Assembly: GCA_030550095.1 (NCBI GenBank)
Contig: JAUQQA010000025.1
Location: forward strand, 1-37,068
Source of the DNA: Chloroflexota bacterium
GTDB lineage: Bacteria > Chloroflexota > Anaerolineae > J036 > Brachytrichaceae
Reading direction: 5' to 3'
Length of the DNA: 37,068 bases
Numbering within the stretch: the first letter of the stretch is position 1; every line of letters starts with the position of its first letter. The position numbers and the translations under genes were made by a program. Shown here piece by piece: positions 303-37,018 of this stretch. The notes under the pieces were generated by a model. It ran no database searches. It was given only the letters and a program-made list of their open reading frames with translations, and was not told the DNA's origin.

Positions 303-414
303 GCCCTAGAGCACGACTTGCGCGAGTGCCAAAACTCACCTCTCAGCCGTGTGGCATGGCGGGAGCCTCAGCAGTGCACCACATGCAGGTATGCTTTGCC
401 CCCGCAAAAGAGGC

Positions 415-3204
415 ATGAAACGCTTTCGCAACGATCGCGCGGTTGTGATCGCGCTCTTGTGGATCGCGCTTGCCTTGCGGCTGCACCAGATCGACCTCCA
501 GAGTTGGTGGTGGGACGAAGGCTACAGCACCTACCTCGCACGCAGTGGCATCTTCGCTGCGCTCCAGCTCACCTCGGTGGACATTCACCCGCCGCTTTAC
601 TACGTGTTGCTCTCGCTGTGGGGTACATTCGCTGGGTACACGGAGTTCACCAGCCGCCTGCTCTCCACGGTTTTTAACCTCGCAACCATCCCGCTGATTT
701 ACCAGGTCGGCAAGCGCAGCTTGAACGCGCGCACAGGCGTGCTTGCGGCAACGATCCTCACCTTCGCGCCTGCACACGTCTATTACGCGCAAGAGGTGCG
801 CATGTACACCTTGTTCGCCTTGGAGTACCTCGTCGCGTTAGGTCTGCTCTGGCGATTGATGCGCGCGGAGATGTGGGACCGACGCACGCTCATCGCGCTT
901 GCCATCACTGAGGCGGCGATGCTCTACACGCATTACTTCTCGGCGGTCGGCGTGGCGTTCATCAACTTGGCGGCGCTCGTGAGCATGCTAAGGCGCCCTG
1001 CCCTTGCGCGCCTCCAGCACCTGCGGCAGTGGATCGGCACGCAGGTCGGCGCCGTGATGCTCTATCTTCCCTGGCTGCCGTTTGCGCTGCGCCAATCGCT
1101 GGCATACGAGGACGACCGCGCCAAGCCGATGCCGTTCGAGGATTTCGCCAACCTCATGTGGCACTTCTTCAACCTAGGCATTCGTGGCGCGATCGGCAAC
1201 CCACGGCGCGACCCACCCCACCCTGAGTTCATCTTCGCCTCAGGCGCGTTTGGCTTGCTCTTCGTAGTTGGACTTCTCTTCGTGCTCGCGATATGGGCAC
1301 GCCGCACTCACGCGCGCGCACGCAATGCCCTGCTCTTCTGGTTAGCAAGCTTTGCGATCCCGTTGCTCCTCGTGTTCGGGCTAATGTTCTGGAAGCCCAC
1401 CATCCACCCGCGCTACGTGCTGATGGTGACGCCCGCGCTCTTCCTTGCGGTTGGTGCCGTCCTTGCTGGGTTGTTCAGCGCGCGCGCATGGCTGCGCCCG
1501 CTGGGCATCGCGTTGGGCATCGCGCTATGCGCGGCTATCGCCGCGACCAGCGTGCGCGGTCTGCACATCGTTTACGGCGACCCGCTCTACTTCCGCGCCG
1601 ACGCGCGCAGCACCGCGCGCTACCTCAGCGAGATCGCGCAAGCAAGCGACGCGATCGTGATCGACTCGCCCGACTTCACACTCGAGCAGTACTACGCAGG
1701 GCGCGCGCCAATGCGCGGGATCAAGATGTTGGCGCGCGAGGCAGAAGGACTGGCAGAGTTGCAGACCCTCACCCAAGGCAAGCAACAGGCGTTCCTCGTG
1801 CGCTGGGATCTCTCGCGCACCGACGATCGCCGCTTCCTTCCCTTTTTGCTCGAGCGCGCAGGACAACTGCGCGAACATCGCCAATTCCACGGCTACGACG
1901 TTTGGCGCTACGGTTTGGAGCGCCCAGTCGAGATGCCCGCGCTTGCCACTGCCGAGACGAACTTCGGCAACGTGCTTCGCCTACGCGGAAGCTTCCATGA
2001 GCCACACGTGCCCAGCGGCGAGGGCATCGCCATCGCGCTTGCGTGGGAGCTGCTTGCGCCGACCACCCGCGCCTACAAAGTCGCCGTGGCGATCGCAGAC
2101 GAAGAACGCCGCGTGCTCAGCAACCGCGACATTCTGCTAATGGACGAACGGCATCGCTACACCTTTCGCTGGGAGCCAGGCTTGCAGACCACTACTTACC
2201 ATGTCGTGCCTGTGCCGCTCGGCACACCGCCAGGCACATACTTCATCATGGTAAGCGTGTATGCGGAGGACGAGGAGACGGGGACGATCGTGCATCACCT
2301 CGACGTGCTCGACCAAGCCGGCAACCCCGCAGGTCAAAGCTTCGTGATCGGCACGTTCGACGTCGGGCTGCCGCGCGACCTCGCCGACCCCTACAACACC
2401 CTAGCAGGCATGACGGGCACCCCGCAACCGCTGGGCGAAGGTGTGACATTGCGCAGCGCCTTGCTTCCCATCACGCGTGCAGCGCCCGGCGAACGTGTGC
2501 CTGTTGTGCTCTTGCTCACCGCGGAGCGCGCGCCGCTGCCCAACGATCCGCTCACCGTCGAGATCGCGCGCAGCGAAACCGTGTTGGGGGCGATCACCGC
2601 CCACGCAGGCAACGGACGCTTTCCCACTGCTGCGTGGCGCGAGGGGTTTCCTGTGCTCGAGCGGCGCTTTGTGCCGATCGCGCCTGAAGCAGCCACAGGC
2701 GACGCCGAAGTGCGCGTCCGCTGGGGCAAGCGCCCCGCGATCTCCCTCGGCACGATCACCATCAGCGGGCGCGCGCGCCGCTTCGAGCCGCCTGCGTTTT
2801 CGGAGGCTGTGGGCGCGCGTTACCCTGATCTTGCCGAGCTGGTCGGCGCCACGCTGGTGCAAGCTTACGACCCTGAGACGCAACGCTTGCGCGTTTCGCT
2901 AGTGTGGCGGGCGCTGAATCCCGTGCCGCTCTCACGCGAGTACGTCGTCTCCGTGCAAGTGCTCAACACAGCAGGGCGCCTGATCGGACAGAGCGATCAC
3001 CCGCCTGGCTTCATCCCTACTTCGTCGTGGGTCGCTGGCGAGTACATCGAAGATGCGCACGAGGTGATCTTCCGAGAGCCGCTCCGCGATGAGGGACGCC
3101 TGATCGTCGTGCTCTATGAGGCGATCTCACAACAGCGCGCGCTGACCACAGAAGGTCATGACGCAATTGTGTTGCCAATGCCTATCCACGCAGGCGCGCG
3201 CTGA
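415..3204 (+). CDS. GT39/PMT-type polytopic glycosyltransferase with a large C-terminal beta region
   Basis: Probable lipid-phosphate-sugar dependent glycosyltransferase of the GT-C class (ArnT/PMT_2-like), acting on the outer face of the cytoplasmic membrane. The N-terminal half (residues about 8-400) is a series of roughly ten hydrophobic segments. The first extracytoplasmic loop has an acidic WWWDEGYS motif, and HPPLYYVLLSLW follows, both typical of the family. After the last membrane segment come about 530 residues without membrane segments, more than the family core needs. They include two similar stretches (about 515-645 and 805-920) with the pattern 'I/V-x-L-x-W-x-A/L-x-x-P...Y-x-V-x-V', read as beta-sandwich domains. 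I chose the ATG at 415 because a charged MKRFRNDR sequence directly precedes the first membrane segment. An in-frame ATG at 391 and another at 349 are alternatives. The substrate is unknown. Confidence 0.75.
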   Translation: MKRFRNDRAVVIALLWIALALRLHQIDLQSWWWDEGYSTYLARSGIFAALQLTSVDIHPPLYYVLLSLWGTFAGYTEFTSRLLSTVFNLATIPLIYQVGKRSLNARTGVLAATILTFAPAHVYYAQEVRMYTLFALEYLVALGLLWRLMRAEMWDRRTLIALAITEAAMLYTHYFSAVGVAFINLAALVSMLRRPALARLQHLRQWIGTQVGAVMLYLPWLPFALRQSLAYEDDRAKPMPFEDFANLMWHFFNLGIRGAIGNPRRDPPHPEFIFASGAFGLLFVVGLLFVLAIWARRTHARARNALLFWLASFAIPLLLVFGLMFWKPTIHPRYVLMVTPALFLAVGAVLAGLFSARAWLRPLGIALGIALCAAIAATSVRGLHIVYGDPLYFRADARSTARYLSEIAQASDAIVIDSPDFTLEQYYAGRAPMRGIKMLAREAEGLAELQTLTQGKQQAFLVRWDLSRTDDRRFLPFLLERAGQLREHRQFHGYDVWRYGLERPVEMPALATAETNFGNVLRLRGSFHEPHVPSGEGIAIALAWELLAPTTRAYKVAVAIADEERRVLSNRDILLMDERHRYTFRWEPGLQTTTYHVVPVPLGTPPGTYFIMVSVYAEDEETGTIVHHLDVLDQAGNPAGQSFVIGTFDVGLPRDLADPYNTLAGMTGTPQPLGEGVTLRSALLPITRAAPGERVPVVLLLTAERAPLPNDPLTVEIARSETVLGAITAHAGNGRFPTAAWREGFPVLERRFVPIAPEAATGDAEVRVRWGKRPAISLGTITISGRARRFEPPAFSEAVGARYPDLAELVGATLVQAYDPETQRLRVSLVWRALNPVPLSREYVVSVQVLNTAGRLIGQSDHPPGFIPTSSWVAGEYIEDAHEVIFREPLRDEGRLIVVLYEAISQQRALTTEGHDAIVLPMPIHAGAR

Positions 3205-3283
3205 GCCAAGCACGGATATCTTTTTCTTTACTTTGCTCTTATTCTGCTGTTGTGGCGCGCACTTCTGTTAAGCTTCAGGCAAC

Positions 3284-4111
3284 ATGCGCGAAAGAGTTGG
3301 CGTCGCGCTTCAGCGTTGGGGTCGCCTCTCAGCAAGGGGGCAACAACGATTGCGCCGATTAGGGCTAGCAGCCGCTTGGCTGTTGAGCGCAGCGTTGATG
3401 GCGGTGGTAGTGCGCCTGGTGTGGCCCGAGCCGCGCCCGCTCACGCCGCGCGAAGTCACCCAGATCGTCAACACCATCATGGCGCAAGCGACGCCCCTCC
3501 CGCCGCCTGGCATCAACGCCTATCGCGCAGTGCTCCCTGCGCTGGTCGTCGTGCAGGCGCAAAAATCCGACGAACAGACAGACCTGGGCAGCGGCGTCAT
3601 CGTGAACCAGGATGGCGCTATTCTCACCAGTTTGCATGTTGTCCAGGGAGCGCGAGCCATTGAGGTGATCTTCGCCGACAACACCCGCGCCTTTGCTCAA
3701 ATCGCCAACGCGCAGCCTGAGAAAGACATCGCCGTGTTACGTGCCACGCAACTGCCGCAGCAGCTTCAGCCTGCGGTGTTGGGCAATCCTGCCAGCTTGC
3801 GCGTTGGCGACGAAGTGTTCGCCGTGGGGCACCCGATGGGGCTTACGGCATCGTTTTCCGCCGGCGTTGTCTCAGGGCTGCAACGCACCGCCACACCCCA
3901 AGGGCTTGAGACGCGCCTCGAAGGGCTGATCCAATTCGATGCTGCCATCAACCCCGGCAGCTCTGGCGGGCCACTTGTGAACCGCAACGGCGAGGTTGTC
4001 GGCATTGTAATCGGGCTGTTGAATCCTGCGCAGCAGCGCGCTTTTGCCGGGATCGGCTTAGCTGTGCCGATCGATGTCGCGGGCGGCGCAGCAGGCTTGC
4101 CACCTTACTGA
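3284..4111 (+). CDS. Membrane-anchored trypsin-like (HtrA/DegP-type) serine protease without PDZ domain
   Basis: Predicted extracytoplasmic serine protease of family S1C. A basic N-terminus is followed by one membrane segment (residues about 27-46), a short Pro-rich linker and a chymotrypsin fold. The catalytic triad is visible: His118 (TSLHVV), Asp148 (EKDIAVL) and Ser227 (NPGSSGGP). The protein stops at residue 275 just after the last strand (GIGLAVPID), so the PDZ domains that usually follow in DegP/DegS are missing. This looks like the natural end, because the next gene begins 15 nt downstream. It is the first gene of a tight plus-strand cluster with MoxR, DUF58 and two VWA proteins, suggesting a role in assembly or quality control of a membrane or surface complex (inference). 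A TAAGCT sequence nine nt before the ATG may be a weak -10 box; no ribosome-binding site is clear. Confidence 0.85.
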   Translation: MRERVGVALQRWGRLSARGQQRLRRLGLAAAWLLSAALMAVVVRLVWPEPRPLTPREVTQIVNTIMAQATPLPPPGINAYRAVLPALVVVQAQKSDEQTDLGSGVIVNQDGAILTSLHVVQGARAIEVIFADNTRAFAQIANAQPEKDIAVLRATQLPQQLQPAVLGNPASLRVGDEVFAVGHPMGLTASFSAGVVSGLQRTATPQGLETRLEGLIQFDAAINPGSSGGPLVNRNGEVVGIVIGLLNPAQQRAFAGIGLAVPIDVAGGAAGLPPY

Positions 4112-4126
4112 GGAGTCTAACGTGAT

Positions 4127-5140
4127 ATGACGCAAATCGAGACCAACCTTGCGCATCGCTTGCCGCTTGAGCATTTGCTCTATGAGGTGAAGAAAATCAT
4201 CGTCGGGCAAGATCACCTGCTCGAGCGCCTGATCATCGCTTTGCTCGCGCGCGGGCATATTCTCGTCGAAGGCGTGCCCGGCTTGGCGAAGACAATGGCG
4301 ATCAAGACGCTCGCCGAGGCATTCGGCGGGCAGTTCAAGCGCATTCAGTTCACGCCCGACCTTGTGCCCGCCGACCTGGTCGGCACGCGCATTTACAACC
4401 AGAAGACGGGCGAGTTCAACACCGTGCTTGGACCTGTGTTCACCAACCTGTTGCTCGCCGACGAGATCAACCGCGCGCCTGCCAAAGTGCAGAGCGCGCT
4501 ACTTGAAGTGATGCAGGAGCGACAAGTCACCATCGGCGGCGAGACCTACAAGGTGCCCAACCCCTTCCTCGTCATGGCGACGCAAAACCCGATCGAATCC
4601 GAAGGCACCTATCCCCTCCCCGAGGCGCAGGTGGATCGCTTCATGATGAAGGTCATCGTGGGGTATCCCTCGCCCTCAGAAGAATTTGTCATCGTTGAGC
4701 GCATGATCGGCTTGCTGCCGCCCGTGCAGAAGGTGTTGAGCATTGAGCAGTTGCTGGAGATGCAACGCCGCGTGTTCGACGTTTACGTGGACCCTGCGCT
4801 CATTGACTACGCGGTGCGCATCGTCAACGCCACGCGCCGCCCGCAAGAAGTGGGGCTGCCAGAGCTGGCGCGCTACATCCAGTTCGGCGCCAGCCCACGC
4901 GCCTCGATCAACATGATCCTCGCGGCACGCGCGCTTGCTTTCGTCCGCGGTCGCACCTACGTGCTGCCCCAAGATGTGTTGGACGTGGTGCTCGACGTGA
5001 CGCGCCATCGCATCGTGCTCTCATACGAGGCGCTCTCGGAAAACGTCTCGCCCGACACGGTGATTTGGAACATCGTGCAGCGCGTGCCTGTGCCTCAAGT
5101 GCCGCTCCATGAACACGCCAACCACCGCGCCGTCGCCTGA
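4127..5140 (+). CDS. MoxR-family AAA+ ATPase
   Basis: Cytoplasmic AAA+ ATPase of the MoxR class, thought to act as a chaperone that activates or inserts cofactors into VWA-containing partners. Visible motifs: Walker A GVPGLAKT (residues 49-56), Walker B LLLADEIN (108-115), and a sensor-1 strand ending MATQNPIE with the adjacent GTYPLPEAQVDRF typical of MoxR. The C-terminal lid follows, for a total of 337 residues, normal for the family. It starts 15 nt after the protease stop and overlaps the DUF58 gene by 32 nt. The order MoxR-DUF58-VWA-VWA is a widely conserved module. The actual client is unknown. Confidence 0.93.
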   Translation: MTQIETNLAHRLPLEHLLYEVKKIIVGQDHLLERLIIALLARGHILVEGVPGLAKTMAIKTLAEAFGGQFKRIQFTPDLVPADLVGTRIYNQKTGEFNTVLGPVFTNLLLADEINRAPAKVQSALLEVMQERQVTIGGETYKVPNPFLVMATQNPIESEGTYPLPEAQVDRFMMKVIVGYPSPSEEFVIVERMIGLLPPVQKVLSIEQLLEMQRRVFDVYVDPALIDYAVRIVNATRRPQEVGLPELARYIQFGASPRASINMILAARALAFVRGRTYVLPQDVLDVVLDVTRHRIVLSYEALSENVSPDTVIWNIVQRVPVPQVPLHEHANHRAVA

Positions 5141-6023
5141 GCGCGTCCTGTTGCGCCTCGAGTGGCATGTTTTGCGCCGCCTCGACGGCGTGTTGCAAGG
5201 CAACTATCGCACGCTGTTCCGCGGCTTCGGGCTCGACCTCGCCGACGTGCGCGAGTATCAGCCCACCGACGACGTGCGGCGCATTGATTGGAACGTGACC
5301 GCGCGCTTGAACGCACCCTTCGTGCGCGATTACCTCGAAGATCGCGACGTGACGGCGTGGTTCCTTGTGGACCTCAGCCCTTCGCTGGGGTTTGGTCCGC
5401 CGCAGCGGCAAAAGCGCGCGGTGATCGTGGACTTCGTCGCCGCGCTCGCGCGCCTGCTCACGCGGCAAGGCAACCGCGTCGGCGCGATGTTGTTTACCGA
5501 TCGACTCGTGCGCGTGATCCCGCCGGGCGTCAACCGCACGCACGTGCTGCGCCTGATCGGCGATCTGCTGCGCACACCCGTGCCCAAACACGCTGCGCTC
5601 ACCGACCTCGCGCCCCTCTTGCGCATCGCGCTGAACAGCATTCGTCGGCGCTCGCTGATCTTCATCGTCTCCGACTTCATCCTCGCGCCGGGCTGGGAGA
5701 TGCCGCTCCTCTCGCTCGCGCAGCGCCATGATGTGTTGCCCGTGCGCGTGTACGACCCGCGCGAGCATGAGCTGCCCGACCTTGGGCCGATCTGGCTGCA
5801 AGACGCCGAGACGGGCGCACAACTGCTCGTGGACACATCCGACCCGCGCTTTCGACAACGCTTCACCCAACACTTGCAGCAGCGCGAAGCTGCCCTGGAG
5901 CGCGCTTTTTTGCAAGCGGGCGTGATGCCGCTGCACCTTTCCACCGAAGACGACCTCGTGCGCAGCTTGGTGAACTTCGCTGCGCGCCGTAAGCATCAAC
6001 GGCGCCTTCGTCTCTCTGCTTGA
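5109..6023 (+). CDS. DUF58 domain protein of the MoxR-VWA module
   Basis: A 304-residue DUF58 protein. The family signature is clear: REYQPTDDVRRIDWNVTAR (residues 48-66). A VWA-like Rossmann core follows, beginning at WFLVDLSPSLGF, where the Asp and the two Ser could form a degenerate metal site. No membrane segment is seen, so it is probably cytoplasmic and works with MoxR and the downstream VWA membrane proteins. The start at 5109 lies inside the 3' end of moxR, a 32-nt overlap that implies translational coupling. The next gene starts three nucleotides after its stop codon. Its biochemical role in the family is not established. Confidence 0.9.
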   Translation: MNTPTTAPSPERVLLRLEWHVLRRLDGVLQGNYRTLFRGFGLDLADVREYQPTDDVRRIDWNVTARLNAPFVRDYLEDRDVTAWFLVDLSPSLGFGPPQRQKRAVIVDFVAALARLLTRQGNRVGAMLFTDRLVRVIPPGVNRTHVLRLIGDLLRTPVPKHAALTDLAPLLRIALNSIRRRSLIFIVSDFILAPGWEMPLLSLAQRHDVLPVRVYDPREHELPDLGPIWLQDAETGAQLLVDTSDPRFRQRFTQHLQQREAALERAFLQAGVMPLHLSTEDDLVRSLVNFAARRKHQRRLRLSA

Positions 6024-6026
6024 GCA

Positions 6027-7040
6027 ATGCGCTTTGAATGGTCTTTCGTCCTGATTGTTGCGCTGCCCTTGTTGGCGCTGGCGGTTGTGCTCTACGCGCG
6101 CTTGCAGCGGCAACGCGCGCTTGCGGCGCAACGTGCCGCAGCGTTGGGCTTTGCGCCACTGCGTCCACTCCCTGCGTGGCGCAAGCACGGCGCAGCGCTG
6201 CTCATCGGGCTAGGGCTGCTCGCGCTGATGCTCGCCGCAGCGCGCCCTGTGGCGACGCTACAACTGCCACGGCTGCGCGGCGTGGTGCTGCTCGTGTTCG
6301 ATGTCTCGGGCAGCATGGCTGCCGATGACGTGAAGCCGAGCCGCATGGAGGCCGCCAAAGCAGCAGCGCGCGCCTTCGTGCAACAGCAACCCGACACGGT
6401 GGAGATCGGCATCGTGGCGTTTAGCGAAGGCGGCCTGACGATTCAAACGCCTACCACCGACAAAGCCGCGCTCTACGCTGCCATCGAGCGCTTGCAGCCC
6501 ACGCGCGGCACCTCGCTCGCCAGCGGCATCCTCGGCGCGCTGCGCGTCATAGACGAACTCAACGCAGACGCCGAAGGGGCCGTCTCTGGCTTGCCCAATG
6601 AACCCCAAGATCCGCGCGATGCACTCCCGCCGCGCCCCGACCGCTACGCGCCGGAGATCCTCGTGCTGATCAGCGATGGCGAGAACACCGCGCCCCCCGA
6701 TCCGCTCGAAGGCGTTGCGGCAGCACGCCAGCGCGGTGTGCGCGTGAACACCATCGGCGTCGGCACACCCGAGGGCGCTGTGCTCCAACTTGAAGGCGGC
6801 TTCACGGTTGTCTCGCGTCTTGACGAAACCGCCCTGCGTCAAATCGCAGAGCTAACTGGGGGGCGCTACTACAACGCGCGCAGCGAAGAGGACCTGCGCA
6901 GTATCTATCGCGACGTTGGCTTGCAGCTCATCGTCGAGCCACAGCCGACCGAGCTCACCGCTGCTTTCGCGTTGGTCGGGCTGGTCTTCCTCTTCGCTGC
7001 GGGCGTGCTTTCGATGCTTTGGTTCGGACGACTTCCCTAG
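6027..7040 (+). CDS. VWA domain membrane protein 1 (BatA-like)
   Basis: Membrane-anchored von Willebrand factor A protein. Two N-terminal hydrophobic segments (about 8-25 and 54-72) precede the VWA domain, and one C-terminal segment (about 308-333) closes the protein. The metal-ion-dependent adhesion site is complete: D92-V-S94-G-S96, a Thr at 162 in RGTSLASG, and Asp217 in ISDGEN. The topology matches BatA-type partners of MoxR ATPases, with the VWA domain between membrane segments. It starts three nucleotides after the DUF58 stop and is followed at 12 nt by a paralogue. It probably binds a divalent metal and a protein ligand; the ligand is unknown. Confidence 0.9.
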   Translation: MRFEWSFVLIVALPLLALAVVLYARLQRQRALAAQRAAALGFAPLRPLPAWRKHGAALLIGLGLLALMLAAARPVATLQLPRLRGVVLLVFDVSGSMAADDVKPSRMEAAKAAARAFVQQQPDTVEIGIVAFSEGGLTIQTPTTDKAALYAAIERLQPTRGTSLASGILGALRVIDELNADAEGAVSGLPNEPQDPRDALPPRPDRYAPEILVLISDGENTAPPDPLEGVAAARQRGVRVNTIGVGTPEGAVLQLEGGFTVVSRLDETALRQIAELTGGRYYNARSEEDLRSIYRDVGLQLIVEPQPTELTAAFALVGLVFLFAAGVLSMLWFGRLP

Positions 7041-7052
7041 GGAGGCAACGGA

Positions 7053-8120
7053 ATGGAATTGCTCGTGCCGAGTGCGTTAGCTCTGGCGTTGTTGGCACCG
7101 CTCGTCCTTGTGTTATACGCATGGGCGCGCCGACGACGCAAGCCGGTCGTGGTGGCGTTCTCCAGCTTTGCCTTGCTCGGCGAGGCAGCACAACAGCAGC
7201 GGCGTTGGCGGGCATGGGTTCCGCCTTTGCTCTTCGCGTCGGCGCTGGTCAGCGCGGCATTTGCAACCGCACGCCCCGTCGCGGTCGCCGTTGCGCCGTT
7301 CGACCGCACGCAAATCGTGTTGGCGCTCGATGTCTCGCTCAGCATGTGTGCCACGGACATCCACCCCAATCGGCTCGCTGCGATGCAAGAAGCGGCGCTG
7401 CGCTTTGTGGAGCGTCAACGCCCTGAGGTGAAGATCGGCGTCGTCGCCTTTGCCGGTTTTGCCGAACTCGTCCAAGCACCCACGACAAACCACCTTGCCG
7501 TGCAGCGCACCATCGAGCGCCTCACCGTCGGGCGACGCACCGCGATCGGCAGCGCCATTTTGCGCGCCATAGACGCCATCGCCGAGAACGACCCGAACAT
7601 CCCGCCAGTGCCGCGCACCCTCGAGCAACCCATGATGCCCACGCCTAAGGGCACCTACGCGCCGAGCATCATCGTGTTGCTCACCGACGGCGTGAGCAAC
7701 ACTGGGCCGCGCCCCGAGGTCGCGGCTGAATTTGCCGCCGAGCGCGGCATTCGTGTGTACACCATCGGCTTCGGCACGGCACAAACCCTCGATGAGTTGT
7801 TTTGCACCGCAGAGCAAACCGGCGGGCGCCCCATCTACGTCAACCGCAACCAGTGGGGACCAGGCGGTATCGCGGCTGGTCCGGGGCAATTCCGCCGCGG
7901 CATTGACGAGGACGCGCTCCGCTATGTGGCGGAGCTAACGGGCGGCGAGTACTTCGCCGCGGAGAGCTTCGAGGAGCTGCTCAAGATCTTCGAGAACCTG
8001 CCCGTGAACCTTGCAGCGCGCACGCAGCAGACCGAGATCGGGGGCATCTTCGCAGCGCTGAGCGCGCTGTTGGCGCTTGCAGCGTTCGCGCTCTCCTTGC
8101 GCTGGCAGCCCATGCTTTAA
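7053..8120 (+). CDS. VWA domain membrane protein 2 (BatA/BatB-like)
   Basis: Second VWA membrane protein, 355 residues, with N-terminal hydrophobic segments at about 5-24 and 54-72 and a C-terminal one at about 333-350. The adhesion-site residues are present: D93-V-S95-L-S97 followed by Met-Cys, Thr163 in GRRTAIGS, and Asp212 in LLTDGVSN. Compared with the first VWA protein it carries a longer Gly/Pro/Arg-rich loop near residues 258-285 (RNQWGPGGIAAGPGQFRRG), before the conserved EDALRYVAELTGGEY helix. The GGAGGCAACGG stretch after the previous stop could serve as the ribosome-binding site. Its TAA stop overlaps the stop of the convergent minus-strand gene by four bases, so no terminator separates them. 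Confidence 0.9.
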   Translation: MELLVPSALALALLAPLVLVLYAWARRRRKPVVVAFSSFALLGEAAQQQRRWRAWVPPLLFASALVSAAFATARPVAVAVAPFDRTQIVLALDVSLSMCATDIHPNRLAAMQEAALRFVERQRPEVKIGVVAFAGFAELVQAPTTNHLAVQRTIERLTVGRRTAIGSAILRAIDAIAENDPNIPPVPRTLEQPMMPTPKGTYAPSIIVLLTDGVSNTGPRPEVAAEFAAERGIRVYTIGFGTAQTLDELFCTAEQTGGRPIYVNRNQWGPGGIAAGPGQFRRGIDEDALRYVAELTGGEYFAAESFEELLKIFENLPVNLAARTQQTEIGGIFAALSALLALAAFALSLRWQPML

Positions 8121-9487
8121 CGCGAGCGCAAGATCACACCGCTCGCGTGGCGCACCTCGCCGACTTCGGCGCTGCCGCTTGTGCTATCGGTCATGTTTTG
8201 CTCCACTGCGTTGCGAAACTGCTCAGGCACGTTGATGGATTGAAGGCCATACGTGTTCTGCGCGAGGTCAATCAACATCTGCGCGGGGGACATGCCGCGC
8301 TTGAGGTGATACACTCGCTGCTTGAAGTCAGCCGTGATCGCCTTTGCCGTCGCTTCGTCGAGCGTGAAGCCGCAAATCTCGCGCAAGAAGTAATGCACGA
8401 TGTTCCAGCCGCTCAGCGGACCGAGCAACACCTCAGACTCTGTGACGCCGAACTGGTCAAGCGGGTGTGCTTCGTAAGTGGCGGCGTGGTTGATCACGGC
8501 TTTCTGATGCACCCCAGCCGCATGGGTGCGATTGGTAAGGCTCACCGGCTCCTTCGAGGGCACAAGCATGCGCAGCTTATCCGCCATCATCACGTTGATG
8601 GGGTATGAGGCGCGCAGGTGATACCCCTCGAGGCGGTCATATTCGCGATCCACAAACAAGTTGAACAGCAAAGCGGTCATGCTGGTGATGCCGCTGCGCT
8701 CGCCGATGCCGAGCAGCGTGGTTTGGATGTACTGCATGCCGTTGCGCACGGCTTCGAGGGCGTTCACGAGCGCAAAGCCGCGATCGTCGTGGAAATGTCC
8801 CTCAAGCGCCACGTCGGGGTAACGCGCGCGCAACGCGCGCACGCGCTGCGCCACCGTCGCGGGCGTCGCCACGCCTACCGTGTCTGGTGTCCCAAAGCGA
8901 TCCACGCAATCCGCCAACGCGTCATACACGCGGAAGAGATCACTTTCGCGTGTGCGGAACGCATCCTCGCCACTGAAGCGCAACACCAATTCGGGGTGAT
9001 TGCGCCGCACGTCCTCAATGAGCGCGCGCGCATTACGCGCGATCTCCTCTAAGCCGCGACCGTGGTTGTAGCTGCGCGCGATCTCTGAAGTGCCAATGTA
9101 CATGTTCAGCCCATCCGCGCCGACCTTGATCGCTGCCTCAACATCGGCGGGGTGGCAGCGCACGTGCGCGAGCAAGAAGGTGTAGCCCTTCTGCGTGATC
9201 AAATCATCGCGCACGGCTTTGATCACATCCCAATCGGCTGCCTCTTGCGCGCTGACGTTGGGCGCGAACAACTCGATGAACTTCACGCCGTAGAGGATCA
9301 ACGCGCGCGCGATCTCCTCTTTGTCCTGCGTGGTGAAGAAGTACTTGTGGTGGTCGTGCAGCAGCGAGGATTGCTGCCCTTCGCGCAACGTCGTGTCAAT
9401 GATCTCCAGCGGGCGTGGGCGATATTGGCGAAAAGTGTATGGTCTAGACATGGTGCTTGAACGAAACGAGCTTTGCTGCGAAGGCAT
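8117..9487 (-). CDS. HMGL-family condensing enzyme, probable homocitrate synthase (Re-citrate synthase is an alternative)
   Basis: A TIM-barrel acetyl-CoA-dependent Claisen condensation enzyme of the isopropylmalate/homocitrate synthase family. Visible motifs: DTTLREGQQ near residues 31-39 (catalytic Arg and metal Asp), the metal-binding pair in EGHFHDD, LGIGERSGIT and the RTHAAGVHQKA segment. The gene overlaps lysK by one base (TGATG) and is the last gene of a cluster containing lysJ and lysK. This favours homocitrate synthase, the first step of alpha-aminoadipate lysine synthesis. The protein (456 residues) is longer than Thermus-type homocitrate synthase (about 375) and has extra residues after LREG (SSLLHDHHKYFF), so a (Re)-citrate synthase, which belongs to the same family, is possible. 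Alternative starts are GTG at 9490 and ATG at 9451. Confidence 0.8.
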   Translation of the reverse strand: MPSQQSSFRSSTMSRPYTFRQYRPRPLEIIDTTLREGQQSSLLHDHHKYFFTTQDKEEIARALILYGVKFIELFAPNVSAQEAADWDVIKAVRDDLITQKGYTFLLAHVRCHPADVEAAIKVGADGLNMYIGTSEIARSYNHGRGLEEIARNARALIEDVRRNHPELVLRFSGEDAFRTRESDLFRVYDALADCVDRFGTPDTVGVATPATVAQRVRALRARYPDVALEGHFHDDRGFALVNALEAVRNGMQYIQTTLLGIGERSGITSMTALLFNLFVDREYDRLEGYHLRASYPINVMMADKLRMLVPSKEPVSLTNRTHAAGVHQKAVINHAATYEAHPLDQFGVTESEVLLGPLSGWNIVHYFLREICGFTLDEATAKAITADFKQRVYHLKRGMSPAQMLIDLAQNTYGLQSINVPEQFRNAVEQNMTDSTSGSAEVGEVRHASGVILRSR

Positions 9488-10560
9488 CACACCAACAGCG
9501 CGCGCAGCGCGCGGGCGAGTACTTTAACCGCCTTTTCAAATTCGTCAATGGGCACGTGCTCATCTGGCGTGTGGTCCAGCGCCGAGTCGCCAGGACCGTA
9601 GGCGACGATCGGGCATCGCCACACCGGACCGACAACGTTAAAGTCCGCTGTGCCGGTTTTGTATTTGAACGCTGGGCGCATGCCCTCGGCGCGGATCGCA
9701 TCCACAAACGCGCGCGCGAGCGGTGAATCCTTGGGCGCGACCCACGCCTGCTCTGCACCTTCAAAGCGAACGTGAACCACAGGGAGCGATGTTTGATCGC
9801 GTTGCGCCCCGCACCATGCCTCAACAGCGCCGCGCAACGCCTCTGGGCCAAAACCGAGCGGCAATCGCGCTGCAAACGTCATCTCGCACCATTCGCGCAA
9901 GCCGTCGCTCCCTGAACAAATGCGGCGGAGCGAGGGCAAGATTTGCTCAAACGCCTTCGGCTTGTCGCGGTTCCACGTTTGCGCGAGCGCGACGACGTGG
10001 TTCCACAGCGCGACCAACTGCTCGCTCGCATTTGGCAAGGGCACTGCCGTGTGACGCATTGGATGCTCGGCGCGCGCATGCACCACCAGGCGCCCCTTGT
10101 AGCCAAGCGTGATCCCTTCCACGCCGCTTGGCTCGCCGATGACGCAGTAGTGCGGCTGGTATTGCGCTGCGACAAAGCGTGCGCCTTTCGACGAGGCGGT
10201 CTCCTCTTCTACTGCGCCGATGACGATCAACGTCCAATCGCGCTGACGCACCAAGGGCGCGACTTGTGCTGCTGCAAGCACGAAGGCGCAAAGCGCACCT
10301 TTGGCGTCCACCGTGCCGCGCCCATACAGCGCGCCGTTCTCATAGCGCACGGGCACCTCACCGCCCACGGTGTCCATGTGCCCAAGGAGCACCATTTGGC
10401 GCGCACCGTTGCCGATCACGCCCACCGCATTGCCTGCCTCGTCAATGAAGGCGCGGTCGAAGCCGCGCTCACGCATCGCCGCGCACAAAAACTCAGCGAC
10501 GGCGCGCTCCTGCCCGCTCAGCGAGGGGATGCGCACACACTGCTCCAACAGCTCGATCAT
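9487..10560 (-). CDS. lysK: [LysW]-lysine hydrolase LysK (M20 metallopeptidase family)
   Basis: LysK releases lysine (and in some organisms ornithine) from the gamma-carboxyl of the LysW carrier protein, the last step of LysW-dependent lysine synthesis in the cytoplasm. The M20 di-metal ligands are visible in the 357-residue protein: His61 (GHMDTV), Asp85 (RGTVDAKG), the EEE at 118-120, Glu143 (IGEPSG) and a C-terminal His in [18 protein letters not shown] after GEPSG and the [12 protein letters not shown] segment are characteristic of LysK rather than ArgE or DapE. The start at 10560 makes an ATGA overlap with the stop of the upstream hydrolase gene. LysW, LysX, LysY and LysZ are not in the window. 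Confidence 0.88.
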
Positions 10561-11423
10561 GTTAAGACTCCGATGCGTTGTAGCCACGCTTCGATCTCGC
10601 TCAGCGGCTTCTCGCGCTCCACCTCGCTGCACACTTCATGATAGAAGCCTGGGTATTCGTGCAATTCATTCATGCCAGGCGGCAGCTTAGCGAAAAAGGC
10701 GCGCGCGCCGCGGTTGTCCACGTATGTGTCCACCTCAGCCAACAAGATGAGCACGGGCACGCGCAGCGTTTCTGCTTTAGCGCGCACCTCCTCGCCTGCG
10801 TCCACGATGAAGCGCGCTGTGCGCAACGTCATTGTGCTGTGCTTCAACGGGTCAGCGTGTTTCCACGCCTCCCAGACAGCATCATGCGTCGCCGGTTGGC
10901 GCAAGCCCGACGAAGGCGGCAACGGCGCCGCGGGCGCGAGCAAGCACGCCAGCCGCCCGAGCGCGATCGTGAGCGCCGAGGCGTGAACGCCAAGCGCCGG
11001 CGCAGAAAGGATCAGCGCGCGCAACGCGGTGGGGTTGCGCACGGCATAAAGCGCTGCGATCGCGCCGCCCATACTATGCCCGAACACGATGGGCTTTTCG
11101 GCGCTGCCTTGTTGCGCCTCAGCGATCACCAACGCTAGATCGTCGAGGTAGTGGTTGTCGTTCAGGATGTGCCCGCGCGCCCCCTCGGAGCGCCCGTGAC
11201 CGTAGTGATCGGCTGCCCAAACGTCAAATCCATGACGCGTGAAGCGCTCGGCGATGTGGTGATAGCGCCCACTGTGCTCGTAGATGCCGTGCACGAGCAC
11301 CACCGGACCGCGCGCTCCGTTGTGCGGCAGCCAATGCCGCACGAACAATTTTGTGCCCACCGATGAGGTCAGCCAGCGTTCCTCGCACGGCGGGAGCGCG
11401 TCGAGCAAGGGGAAAGGCTGCAT
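10557..11423 (-). CDS. Alpha/beta hydrolase, monoacylglycerol lipase-like
   Basis: A 288-residue soluble serine hydrolase of the Hydrolase_4/monoacylglycerol lipase type. The catalytic triad can be read: Ser117 (GHSMGG), Asp232 ([10 protein letters not shown]) and His262 (GFYHEV), with the oxyanion motif [11 protein letters not shown] near 44-54. No signal peptide is present. It sits between lysJ and lysK, 12 nt after the first and overlapping the second by four bases, so all are probably made from one mRNA. The known LysW pathway has no step for such an enzyme. It may be a lipase riding in the operon or an esterase acting on an unrecognised intermediate; the sequence does not decide. Confidence 0.85.
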
Positions 11424-11435
11424 GGCGCGCGACGT

Positions 11436-12620
11436 TTAGGCAGGCTCCAGCACAGCGGCGCGCAGCACATGCGCCACCTTCTCCACCACGAAGTCAATTT
11501 GCTCGTAGGTGATCACGGCTGGCGGCAAAAAGCGCAGCACGTTCAACCCCGCCGGCAGCGCCAACACGCCTTCCGCCTGCAAGGCGCGCAGGTACGGCGC
11601 CACCTTGGTGCGCAACTCCACGCCGATCAACAAACCCAAGCCGCGCACCTCACGCACCACTGGCGCCTGTAACGCCGCGAGGCGTTCGCGGAAGTAGGCG
11701 CCTTTCTCCGCCGCAAGGCGCGGCACATCTAAGCGCTGCATCTCGCGGATCGCCGCGATCCCCGCCGCGCACGCGAGCGGATTGCCGCCGAAGGTGCTGC
11801 CGTGCACGCCAGGCGCGAGGTTCTTCACCGTGTTGCGGATGCCCACCGCACCCATCGGCACGCCGCCAGCGATGGCTTTGCCCATCGCTATCAGGTCTGG
11901 CACCACGCCGCTATGCTCAACGGCGAACCAACGCCCCGTACGCCCAAAGCCGGTCTGCACCTCGTCAGCGATGAGCAGCGCACCGCGCTGCTCGGTGATG
12001 GCACGCGCGGCTTGCAAATACGCTGCCGTCGCTGGATGCACGCCCCCCTCGCCTTGCACAGGCTCGATCAGCACAGCCGCTGTTTGCTCGTCCACCGCAC
12101 GCTCAAGCGCCTCGATGTTATTAAACGGCACGTGCGAGAAACCAGGGACCAGCGGCTTGAACGGCTCGCGGTACTTCGGCTCGAAGGTGGCGCTGAGCGC
12201 GCCCATCGTGCGCCCGTGAAAGCCGCGCACTGCTGCTACGATGTTTGGCCGCCCCGTGCTCAATCGCGCGAATTTGATTGCAGCTTCCACGGCCTCCGCG
12301 CCGCTGTTGCACAAATACACACGTTGCATTCCTGGGGGCAGCAGTGAAACCAGTAGCGCCTCAAACTCAGCACGACGGTCGTTGTAGAAAATCTCGGGAC
12401 AGGAGACGAGGATCAACGCCTGTTCGGCAATTGCACGCGCAACAGCCTCATTGGCGTGCCCCAAGATGCTCACTCCTTGACCACCGACGCAGTCCACGTA
12501 GGCGCGCCCGTGCTCATCCCACAACACCGCCTCTTTGCCGCGCACGATCACCACATCGCGCTTGGGATACACGCCAGCGGTGTGTTGTTGCTCAAGCAGT
12601 TGGGTTGCGCTTGGAGACAT
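11436..12620 (-). CDS. lysJ: [LysW]-aminoadipate semialdehyde transaminase LysJ
   Basis: Class III PLP-dependent aminotransferase that converts [LysW]-aminoadipate semialdehyde to [LysW]-lysine, using glutamate; the family also includes ArgD. Visible: NSGAEA at 105-110, FHGRTMG at 134-140, the PLP-ring Asp in ADEVQTGFGRTG (Asp219), and the Schiff-base lysine Lys248 in IAMGKAIAGG. The N-terminal VYPKRDVVIVRGKEAVLWDEHGRAYVD pattern and the lysK neighbour point to LysJ rather than ArgD, although dual use in arginine synthesis cannot be excluded. The gene opens the minus-strand operon. Its ATG lies nine nucleotides after a TACAAT box and has no ribosome-binding site, so the mRNA is probably nearly leaderless. 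Confidence 0.88.
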   Translation of the reverse strand: MSPSATQLLEQQHTAGVYPKRDVVIVRGKEAVLWDEHGRAYVDCVGGQGVSILGHANEAVARAIAEQALILVSCPEIFYNDRRAEFEALLVSLLPPGMQRVYLCNSGAEAVEAAIKFARLSTGRPNIVAAVRGFHGRTMGALSATFEPKYREPFKPLVPGFSHVPFNNIEALERAVDEQTAAVLIEPVQGEGGVHPATAAYLQAARAITEQRGALLIADEVQTGFGRTGRWFAVEHSGVVPDLIAMGKAIAGGVPMGAVGIRNTVKNLAPGVHGSTFGGNPLACAAGIAAIREMQRLDVPRLAAEKGAYFRERLAALQAPVVREVRGLGLLIGVELRTKVAPYLRALQAEGVLALPAGLNVLRFLPPAVITYEQIDFVVEKVAHVLRAAVLEPA

Positions 12621-13017: not shown

Positions 13018-14883
13018 ATGACAACTGCTGTTCAGCGCTCATTTGTCTCCAGCGCCTCGGTCTCGTCTGCGCCGCAGCCAGGGTTAGGTCGCATTATCTT
13101 CGCCTCGGCTGCTGGCACGATGATCGAGTGGTATGACTTCTATATCTTCGGCAGCCTCGCAACGGTTATCTCGAGCAAGTTTTATCAAACGGGCACACCT
13201 CTTGGGGACCTCATCGCTTGGCTTAGCGCCTTCGCGGTTGGTTTCATCGTGCGTCCCTTCGGCGCTGTTGTTTTCGGGCGCGTGGGCGATCTCGTCGGCC
13301 GTAAGTACACCTTTCTCATCACGATGACGCTGATGGGCACATGCACCTTCTTGGTCGGCGTGCTGCCCACGGCAGACGTGATAGGGCCAGTAGCAGGCAT
13401 CATTTTGGTTGTGCTGCGCCTGCTTCAAGGTTTAGCATTAGGGGGCGAGTACGGCGGTGCAGCGACATACGTCGCTGAGCACTCTCCAAACGACCGACGC
13501 GGCTTCATGACGAGCTGGATCCAAATCACTGCCACGCTCGGTTTGTTTGTCTCCCTTGCCGTGATCCAGATCACACGGTTCGCAGTGGGCGAGGAGAACT
13601 TCAAGGAGTTTGGCTGGCGCATCCCGTTCCTCATCTCAATTTTCCTCATCGTCATCTCGTTGTGGATCCGCTTCTCGCTGCGCGAGTCGCCGCTCTACGT
13701 TAAGCTGAAGGAGAAGAAGCAGGTCTCCAAGAACCCGATCGTGGAGAGCTTCGGCAACCCGCTGAACTTGCGCTACGTGCTGCTAGCGCTGTTCGGCGCC
13801 ACCATGGGGCAAGGCGTGGTGTGGTACACGGGGCAGTTCTACGCGCTGTTTTACCTTCAGAAGATCTTCGGCGTTGACCTCGTTACTTCAAACTTCATCG
13901 TTGGCGCCGCGCTGCTCGCCGCAACGCCCCTGTTTGTCGTGATGGGGCATCTCTCCGACAAGTATGGTCGCAAGCCCTTCTTGATCGGCGGCATGGCGCT
14001 CGCCGCGGTGACCTATCTGCCCATCTACTGGCTCATGTCGCAATTCGCGCCCTACATCGGCGACCCAGCCAACAAGATCGCGAATCCGAACTACAGCCCC
14101 ATTGCCTTGGCGGTGTTGGTCTTCATCCAAGTGGTTTACGTGACCATGGTGTATGGACCCATCGCCGCCTTTCTCGTCGAGCTGTTCCCTACCAAAATCC
14201 GCTACACCTCTATGTCGCTGCCTTACCACATCGGTAACGGCGTGTTTGGCGGCTTGGTGCCTGTGATCGGGCTTTCGCTGATCCAAGCTACGGGGAACAA
14301 CTACGCGGGGCTTTGGTATCCCATCGCCGTCGCAACGGTGAGCGCCGTGATCGGGCTACTGCGCATACCAGAGACGTCCCGCGTGGACCTCGCTTCGGAT
14401 CAATCCATCGCGGTGATCCGCGCTGGCAAGGCGGCGCCCATCAACCGCCGCATCCTCGTCCCGCTTGACGGATCGAGCACTTCCGAAGCTGTGCTGGAGC
14501 ACGTGAAGCGGCTCGCAAAGACGGAGAACGCCGAGGTCGTGCTGCTCCATGTGATCAGCGCGAGCGAAGAAGTCTTTCAAGACCCAGCGCTTGCTGCTGC
14601 AGAAGTGGAGGCCATCGCTTCTGAAGAGCGCGCTTATCTCGACCGGCTGGTTAACCAGCTCAGCAAGGAAAACATCACCGTCTCCGCTGAGGTGCGCTGC
14701 GGCCCAGTGGCTGAGACCATCGTGGCGACGGCTAAAGAACTAGGCGCGGACCTGATCGCCATGTGCACGCATGGGCACAGCGGCTTCAAGAAGTTGGTCA
14801 TGGGCAGCGTCACGGAGTGGGTGATCCAACACGCCCCCGTGCCCGTGATGGCCTTCCGACCTCAACCGCAGCCCGCAAGCTAA
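13018..14883 (+). CDS. Metabolite:H+ symporter (MFS, MHS family) fused to a C-terminal universal stress protein domain
   Basis: Cytoplasmic-membrane transporter of 621 residues. Residues about 22-455 form a twelve-segment major facilitator domain of the metabolite:H+ symporter type (ProP/KgtP-like). Marks are GTMIEWYDFYIFG near 33-45, RPFGAVVFGRVGDLVGRKYTF near 79-99, the GGEYGGAATYVAEHSP segment, and GHLSDKYGRKPF in the second half. Residues about 473-617 are a UspA domain starting RILVPLDGSS and ending with THGHSGFKKLVMGSVTEWV, the ATP-binding loop. The first Gly of the usual G-2x-G-9x-G motif is replaced by Cys; the other two remain. The fusion suggests nucleotide- or stress-linked control of transport (inference). 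The start is fixed by TAAGGAGG seven nt upstream. The substrate is not deducible; small carboxylates or osmolytes are typical of the family. Confidence 0.87.
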   Translation: MTTAVQRSFVSSASVSSAPQPGLGRIIFASAAGTMIEWYDFYIFGSLATVISSKFYQTGTPLGDLIAWLSAFAVGFIVRPFGAVVFGRVGDLVGRKYTFLITMTLMGTCTFLVGVLPTADVIGPVAGIILVVLRLLQGLALGGEYGGAATYVAEHSPNDRRGFMTSWIQITATLGLFVSLAVIQITRFAVGEENFKEFGWRIPFLISIFLIVISLWIRFSLRESPLYVKLKEKKQVSKNPIVESFGNPLNLRYVLLALFGATMGQGVVWYTGQFYALFYLQKIFGVDLVTSNFIVGAALLAATPLFVVMGHLSDKYGRKPFLIGGMALAAVTYLPIYWLMSQFAPYIGDPANKIANPNYSPIALAVLVFIQVVYVTMVYGPIAAFLVELFPTKIRYTSMSLPYHIGNGVFGGLVPVIGLSLIQATGNNYAGLWYPIAVATVSAVIGLLRIPETSRVDLASDQSIAVIRAGKAAPINRRILVPLDGSSTSEAVLEHVKRLAKTENAEVVLLHVISASEEVFQDPALAAAEVEAIASEERAYLDRLVNQLSKENITVSAEVRCGPVAETIVATAKELGADLIAMCTHGHSGFKKLVMGSVTEWVIQHAPVPVMAFRPQPQPAS

Positions 14884-19686: not shown

Positions 19687-19760
19687 AGCGAGAGACGGGA
19701 TTTGAACCCGCGACCTGTTCCTTGGCAAGGAACCGCTCTACCAGACTGAGCCACTCCCGC
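19687..19760 (-). tRNA. tRNA-Gly (anticodon GCC)
   Basis: Cloverleaf of 74 nt on the minus strand. The acceptor stem is GCGGGAG with CTCTCGC (one G-U pair), the discriminator is U73 as expected for glycine, and the D arm is GCTC/GAGC. The anticodon stem GTTCC/GGAAC encloses the loop TTGCCAA (anticodon GCC), and the T arm contains TTCAAAT. CCA is not encoded. Confidence 0.97.
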
Positions 19761-36946: not shown

Positions 36947-37018
36947 TGGGGCGTAGCCAAGTGGTAAGGCAGCGGACTTTGGATCCGCCATTCGTAGGTT
37001 CGAATCCTGCCGCCCCAG
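36947..37018 (+). tRNA. tRNA-Gln (anticodon TTG)
   Basis: Cloverleaf of 72 nt. The acceptor stem is TGGGGCG with CGCCCCA, starting with the unpaired-type U1-A72 pair typical of tRNA-Gln, and the discriminator is G. The anticodon stem GCGGA/TCCGC encloses CTTTGGA (anticodon TTG, UUG in RNA), and the T arm contains GTTCGAATC. CCA is not encoded. Confidence 0.97.

Follow-up and report, generated by a model that had tools for sequence, protein, structure and literature searches.

The minus-strand gene at 8117-9451 of the window (the whole 37,068-nucleotide stretch of Chloroflexota DNA that was analysed) very probably encodes the homocitrate synthase of a LysW-type aminoadipate lysine pathway, as judged from sequence comparison, and it falls in a divergent clade outside the curated model for this enzyme. 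What is new is the clade: a well-separated group of LysS/Lys4-type enzymes, mainly from Anaerolineae of the Chloroflexota, marked by an LLHD[HY] insert. The sequence-only reading had placed an HMGL-family enzyme at 8117-9487, giving no strand, and had left homocitrate synthase and (Re)-citrate synthase both open. The frame proved real; the lean towards homocitrate, which had rested on lysK, was borne out by genome content, the operon context of relatives, the tree and active-site positions, and the (Re)-citrate option was not sustained.

The gene, its start and its surroundings

8117..9451, minus strand: probable homocitrate synthase of the divergent LysS/Lys4-type clade, 444 aa from ATG 9451 (456 from ATG 9487; 457 from GTG 9490)
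8120..8317, minus strand: C-terminal stretch past the end of the homocitrate-synthase profile (residues 379-444; pLDDT < 50 from 408 to 444)
9182..9202, minus strand: LITQKGY (residues 84-90), the clade's other insert, preceding the strand with pocket His96 (from the alignment)
9347..9364, minus strand: six-residue insert LLHDHH (30-35), immediately following LREGQQSS of the catalytic loop; LLHD[HY] is conserved in the clade
9487..10632, minus strand: lysK, [LysW]-lysine hydrolase, upstream; PRK04443 422 bits, cut-off 363; its stop overlaps ATG 9487
10557..11423, minus strand: alpha/beta hydrolase (lysophospholipase-like) between lysJ and lysK, from a profile search
11436..12620, minus strand: LysJ-type [LysW]-aminoadipate semialdehyde transaminase; top NCBIfam model LysJ_Th_th 494 bits (cut-off 700 missed), argD subfamily 435 (cut-off 410)
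19687-19760, minus strand, and 36947-37018, plus strand: two tRNA genes (Rfam)

The longest form of the HMGL-family frame spans 8117-9490 from a GTG. The lysK stop ends in the same A with which the ATG at 9487 begins (TGATG). The gene directly follows lysK, as had been noticed earlier. Close relatives align from the Met of the in-frame ATG at 9451 or from a few residues after it, and the 444-aa start is therefore preferred. The length first given, about 456 residues and some 80 more than the Thermus enzyme, agrees with the form from ATG 9487 (80 over the Thermus chain of 376 residues; 68 for the 444-aa form). Most of this excess is a C-terminal tail of about 45 residues, and the two inserts add 6 (LLHDHH) and 7.

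The plus strand at 349-8120 carries a run of genes for a MoxR ATPase (4127-5140), a DUF58 protein and a pair of VWA proteins, of which one has a BatA domain. This MoxR/Bat-like operon, preceded by genes for a trypsin-like protease and a PMT_2-type membrane protein, is convergent with the lysine genes, and its MoxR and VWA genes are retained in the nearest relative (L046). The alpha/beta hydrolase occupies the same lysJ-lysK position in 8/56 relative loci (L046-L052 and L066), all of them close. At 13018-14883, also on the plus strand, a single protein joins a metabolite/H+ symporter-type MFS transporter to a C-terminal universal stress (Usp) domain. The Rfam scan of the window found nothing besides the two tRNAs, and promoter and terminator scans of the window stayed at chance level.

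Profile matches, lysine genes and relatives

The protein matched the Pfam domains PF00682 (HMGL, 175 bits) and PF22617 (HCS_D2, post-HMGL, 50.8 bits), both above cut-off. Its best NCBIfam match was homocitrate synthase TIGR02146, at 226.2 bits and below the curated cut-off of 413.55. All 33 clade members scanned matched this model with a best E of only 9.9e-72, so none of them comes near the cut-off. Ordinary Chloroflexota LysS proteins and the Deinococcus LysS scored 340-499, six of these seven sequences being scored on the matched stretch only; four of the seven reached the cut-off (L011, L015, L031 and Deinococcus), and the phylum LysS proteins L018, L013 and L021 missed it. In the PDB, the best sequence matches were S. 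pombe Lys4 (E 6e-58) and the Thermus homocitrate synthase, and a Foldseek search with the predicted fold placed the same enzymes first, with the Thermus enzyme at the top. The structure model was moderate (mean pLDDT 69) with a good barrel; pLDDT fell below 50 at residues 21-35, 296-348 and 408-444, so the model is uninformative on the shape of the insert.

The genome assembly comprises 2.35 Mb in 67 contigs and is 97.4% complete. It holds only three HMGL proteins, namely LeuA (contig C9) and CimA (C17), both above their curated cut-offs, and the window gene, which is therefore the only candidate for the first step; no separate LysS-type enzyme was found in the genome. LysW and LysX are adjacent on C17; on C16 the [LysW]-aminoadipate kinase LysZ (429 bits against a cut-off of 223) lies next to an ArgC/LysY-type reductase. 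A HacA-type large subunit lies on C7. Three Aconitase_C proteins were found, AcnA (C20) and two short frames (C43 and C4), the latter as expected for stand-alone small subunits. Of three isocitrate/isopropylmalate-type dehydrogenases, one is of the homoisocitrate type. DapB gave no match in the genome in a search that was positive in 12/14 control genomes. Among the pathway genes searched for, the aminoadipate route thus appears essentially complete, its genes being scattered across several contigs. The LysZ/LysY pair (G000:C16, L132:3808-7388) adjoins bchZ (TIGR02014, 552 bits, above cut-off), and therefore the organism probably makes bacteriochlorophyll, like its Roseilinea relatives.

A pattern scan of genome contigs with two peptide patterns, which by its design recovers only close kin, yielded 56 loci at 61-96% identity. 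Fifty-two carry titles of Chloroflexi/Chloroflexota, Thermoflexales, Roseilinea, Thermoflexus, Anaerolineae/Anaerolineales or Ardenticatenia; the remaining four are titled uncultured bacterium (two), Planctomycetota (one) and Acidobacteria (one). A search of 301 Chloroflexota genomes gave matches at E <= 1e-40 in 80 of them, exactly one per genome; 6 of these matches are clade members (E <= 1.8e-197), and the other 74 are of the ordinary kind (E >= 1.8e-62). A lysX, lysJ, lysK or homoaconitase gene stood on the same strand at 48/56 clade loci, and within 300 bases at 45/56. The L094 run reads lysX-lysY-lysZ-lysJ-HCS-LysT-LysU-HICDH-lysK. An apparent fusion of homoaconitase small subunit and homoisocitrate dehydrogenase at this locus (506-aa frame) was rejected as a wrong-frame start artefact, the small subunit being a separate overlapping frame. 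The other 8 loci showed none of these genes; at three of these 8 (L062, L064 and L093) the contig reaches 8.9-10 kb to either side. One of these contigs, L062, is labelled Thermoflexus hugenholtzii JAD2 (MAG), a label that may be wrong; it carries the clade enzyme with no lys neighbours within about 9-10 kb. A split hit (L083) was excluded from all protein counts, and alignment A3 comprised the window protein and 32/56 loci, omitting L076, L096 (internal stop in the given range), L097 and 21 further loci.

A tree of 65 proteins was computed with IQ-TREE under a mixture model; it included the window protein, 22/55 usable clade loci and 24/74 non-clade matches (those with loci). Fifty rows, made up of the clade, the phylum LysS, the Deinococcus LysS and the Thermus and S. 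pombe enzymes, formed one side of a branch supported at 100/99. The clade was supported at 100/100 on a stem of 1.84 changes per column, and its sister within the LysS group was phy_L018 (92/82), a placement that is not firm. AU tests rejected all trees in which the clade was constrained to group with (Re)-citrate-synthase candidates (p-AU 0.002), LeuA (1.3e-05) or NifV (0.00015); a NifV homocitrate synthase was dropped on the last of these. Because long branches are present, the tree is relied on only together with context and residues.

Active-site positions, inserts and alternative reactions

The pocket and catalytic positions compared, in the numbering of S. pombe Lys4, were R43, E44, Q47, E74, H103, R163, S165, E167, T197, E222, H224, H226, H321 and Y332. 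All listed positions were retained in the window protein. Across the clade, E44 was kept in 48/56 proteins and was Asp in 8, and the other positions were kept in 56/56. The protein would join acetyl-CoA to 2-oxoglutarate with the help of a divalent metal bound by HxH and Asp/Glu of the HMGL TIM barrel. His96, Arg158, Ser160 and Glu217 would form the 2-oxoglutarate pocket, and the C-terminal subdomain would place His315 and Tyr326 in the active centre. The product, homocitrate, would then pass through homoaconitase (LysT/LysU) and homoisocitrate dehydrogenase to the LysW-carried steps of LysX, LysZ, LysY, LysJ and LysK.

The window protein shares with the LysS-type enzyme of Thermus thermophilus (PDB 2ztj, 3a9i) the fold, the HMGL barrel and subdomain, the pocket residues and, probably, a role in the LysW aminoadipate pathway. 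It differs in having only about 37% identity, the 6- and 7-residue inserts, the longer C-terminal tail and Ile320 at the position of the lysine-contacting Tyr297. S. pombe Lys4 (PDB 3ivs, 3ivt, 3mi3) is alike in its pocket residues, but it is 36% identical, lacks the inserts and has Asp123 where the window protein has Asn116. This Asp-to-Asn change was considered as a sign of lysine insensitivity and dropped, Asn being usual in ordinary LysS of the phylum (20/24). The ordinary LysS proteins of other Chloroflexota (L010-L033) belong to the same enzyme group and probably catalyse the same reaction, but they are 35-39% identical and lack the insert (0/24).

Both LREGQQ and, shortly after it, HDHHKYFF were found in the translation exactly as first described. 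The pattern LR[ED]G.Q[ST].LLHD[HY].K[YH] occurred in 56/56 clade proteins and in 0/24 ordinary Chloroflexota LysS-type proteins, and the six-residue insert beside the catalytic Gln is therefore not due to chance. The second-last residue of LREGQQ was Q in 32 of the 56, S in 22, T in one and A in one, and so has no diagnostic value. It is possible, though unlikely, that the clade is functionally re-tuned: the invariant LLHD[HY] would then be a new loop over the active site, and through it the handling of metal or acceptor would differ, or the known competitive inhibition by lysine would give way to a different control.

Among the alternatives, the one that survives best, although improbable, is a homocitrate synthase with a shifted substrate range or regulation, in which the insert alters the acceptor (for example, by allowing chains to be lengthened past 2-oxoglutarate, or both 2-oxoglutarate and oxaloacetate to be used) or the response to lysine. 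The long clade stem, the conservation of the insert right beside the catalytic Gln and the replacement of the lysine-contacting Thermus Tyr would fit it, but every 2-oxoglutarate pocket position tested is unchanged and the gene context is that of plain lysine synthesis. Because Tyr297 is replaced by Ile320, lysine inhibition cannot be predicted for the window protein. In the alignment, S. pombe Lys4 likewise lacks the Thermus Tyr, and yet it is inhibited by lysine according to passages of PMC8276798, which also give the roles of R43 and of Thermus His292, Tyr303 and Tyr297.

A (Re)-citrate synthase, condensing acetyl-CoA with oxaloacetate in place of the Si-citrate synthase, is still less probable. 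Such enzymes belong to the same HMGL superfamily and have the metal-binding HxH, and passages of PMC12016533 describe their misannotation as homocitrate synthase, Chloroflexota included. The comparison used four genomes, each a single contig of 1.4-1.7 Mb and all placed in the same Chloroflexota family (G007, G020, G048 and G030), which are Dehalococcoides-like by inference. Each has four HMGL proteins: a LeuA-like, a CimA-like and a carboxylase-type protein (about 590-660 aa), and a fourth, about 424-427 aa long, that is likely the (Re)-citrate synthase, an identification made by inference and not by name. These candidates are only 26-27% identical to the window protein, occupy a different tree position (grouping rejected, p-AU 0.002) and have W, G and N at clade H96, R158 and S160. 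LREGQQ and HDHHKYFF do not point to (Re)-citrate synthase, since the candidates have neither. A conventional Si-citrate synthase is present in the window genome (C6) and in 6/6 clade genomes examined, versus 0/4 Dehalococcoides-like genomes, and the window gene lies among lysine genes. An isopropylmalate or citramalate synthase is scarcely credible: the LeuA and CimA profile matches are weak and all far below cut-off (TIGR00973 142 vs 598.7), a separate LeuA and a separate CimA are encoded elsewhere in the genome, the domain scan matched only HMGL and HCS_D2 with no LeuA regulatory domain, and grouping with LeuA, named earlier as a refuting outcome, was rejected (p-AU 1.3e-05).

The probable place of the clade in lysine synthesis

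Homocitrate synthase remains the best explanation of the window gene. What speaks against it is the score of 226 vs 413.55 on the NCBIfam model, a stem of 1.84 that could hide a change of function, the 8/56 loci without a lys neighbour and the scattering of the pathway in its own genome. The literature search, which covered titles and abstract openings and, for PMC12016533, PMC8276798, PMC8129789 and PMC3356886, passages of text, found no paper on the clade or the insert.

The clade enzyme would fill the first lysine step in a set of uncultured Anaerolineae, bacteria of a poorly known group from hot springs and sediments. Because it scores so far below the curated threshold, annotation pipelines may report the pathway without its first step, and genomes that carry it may be listed as lysine auxotrophs or annotated with the wrong enzyme name. 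A Thermoflexus study, in passages of PMC8129789, predicted that lysine is not made de novo and suspected that the LysW pathway includes undefined genes; the clade enzyme is a candidate for gaps such as this one. The conserved insert, for its part, offers a concrete target for enzymology.
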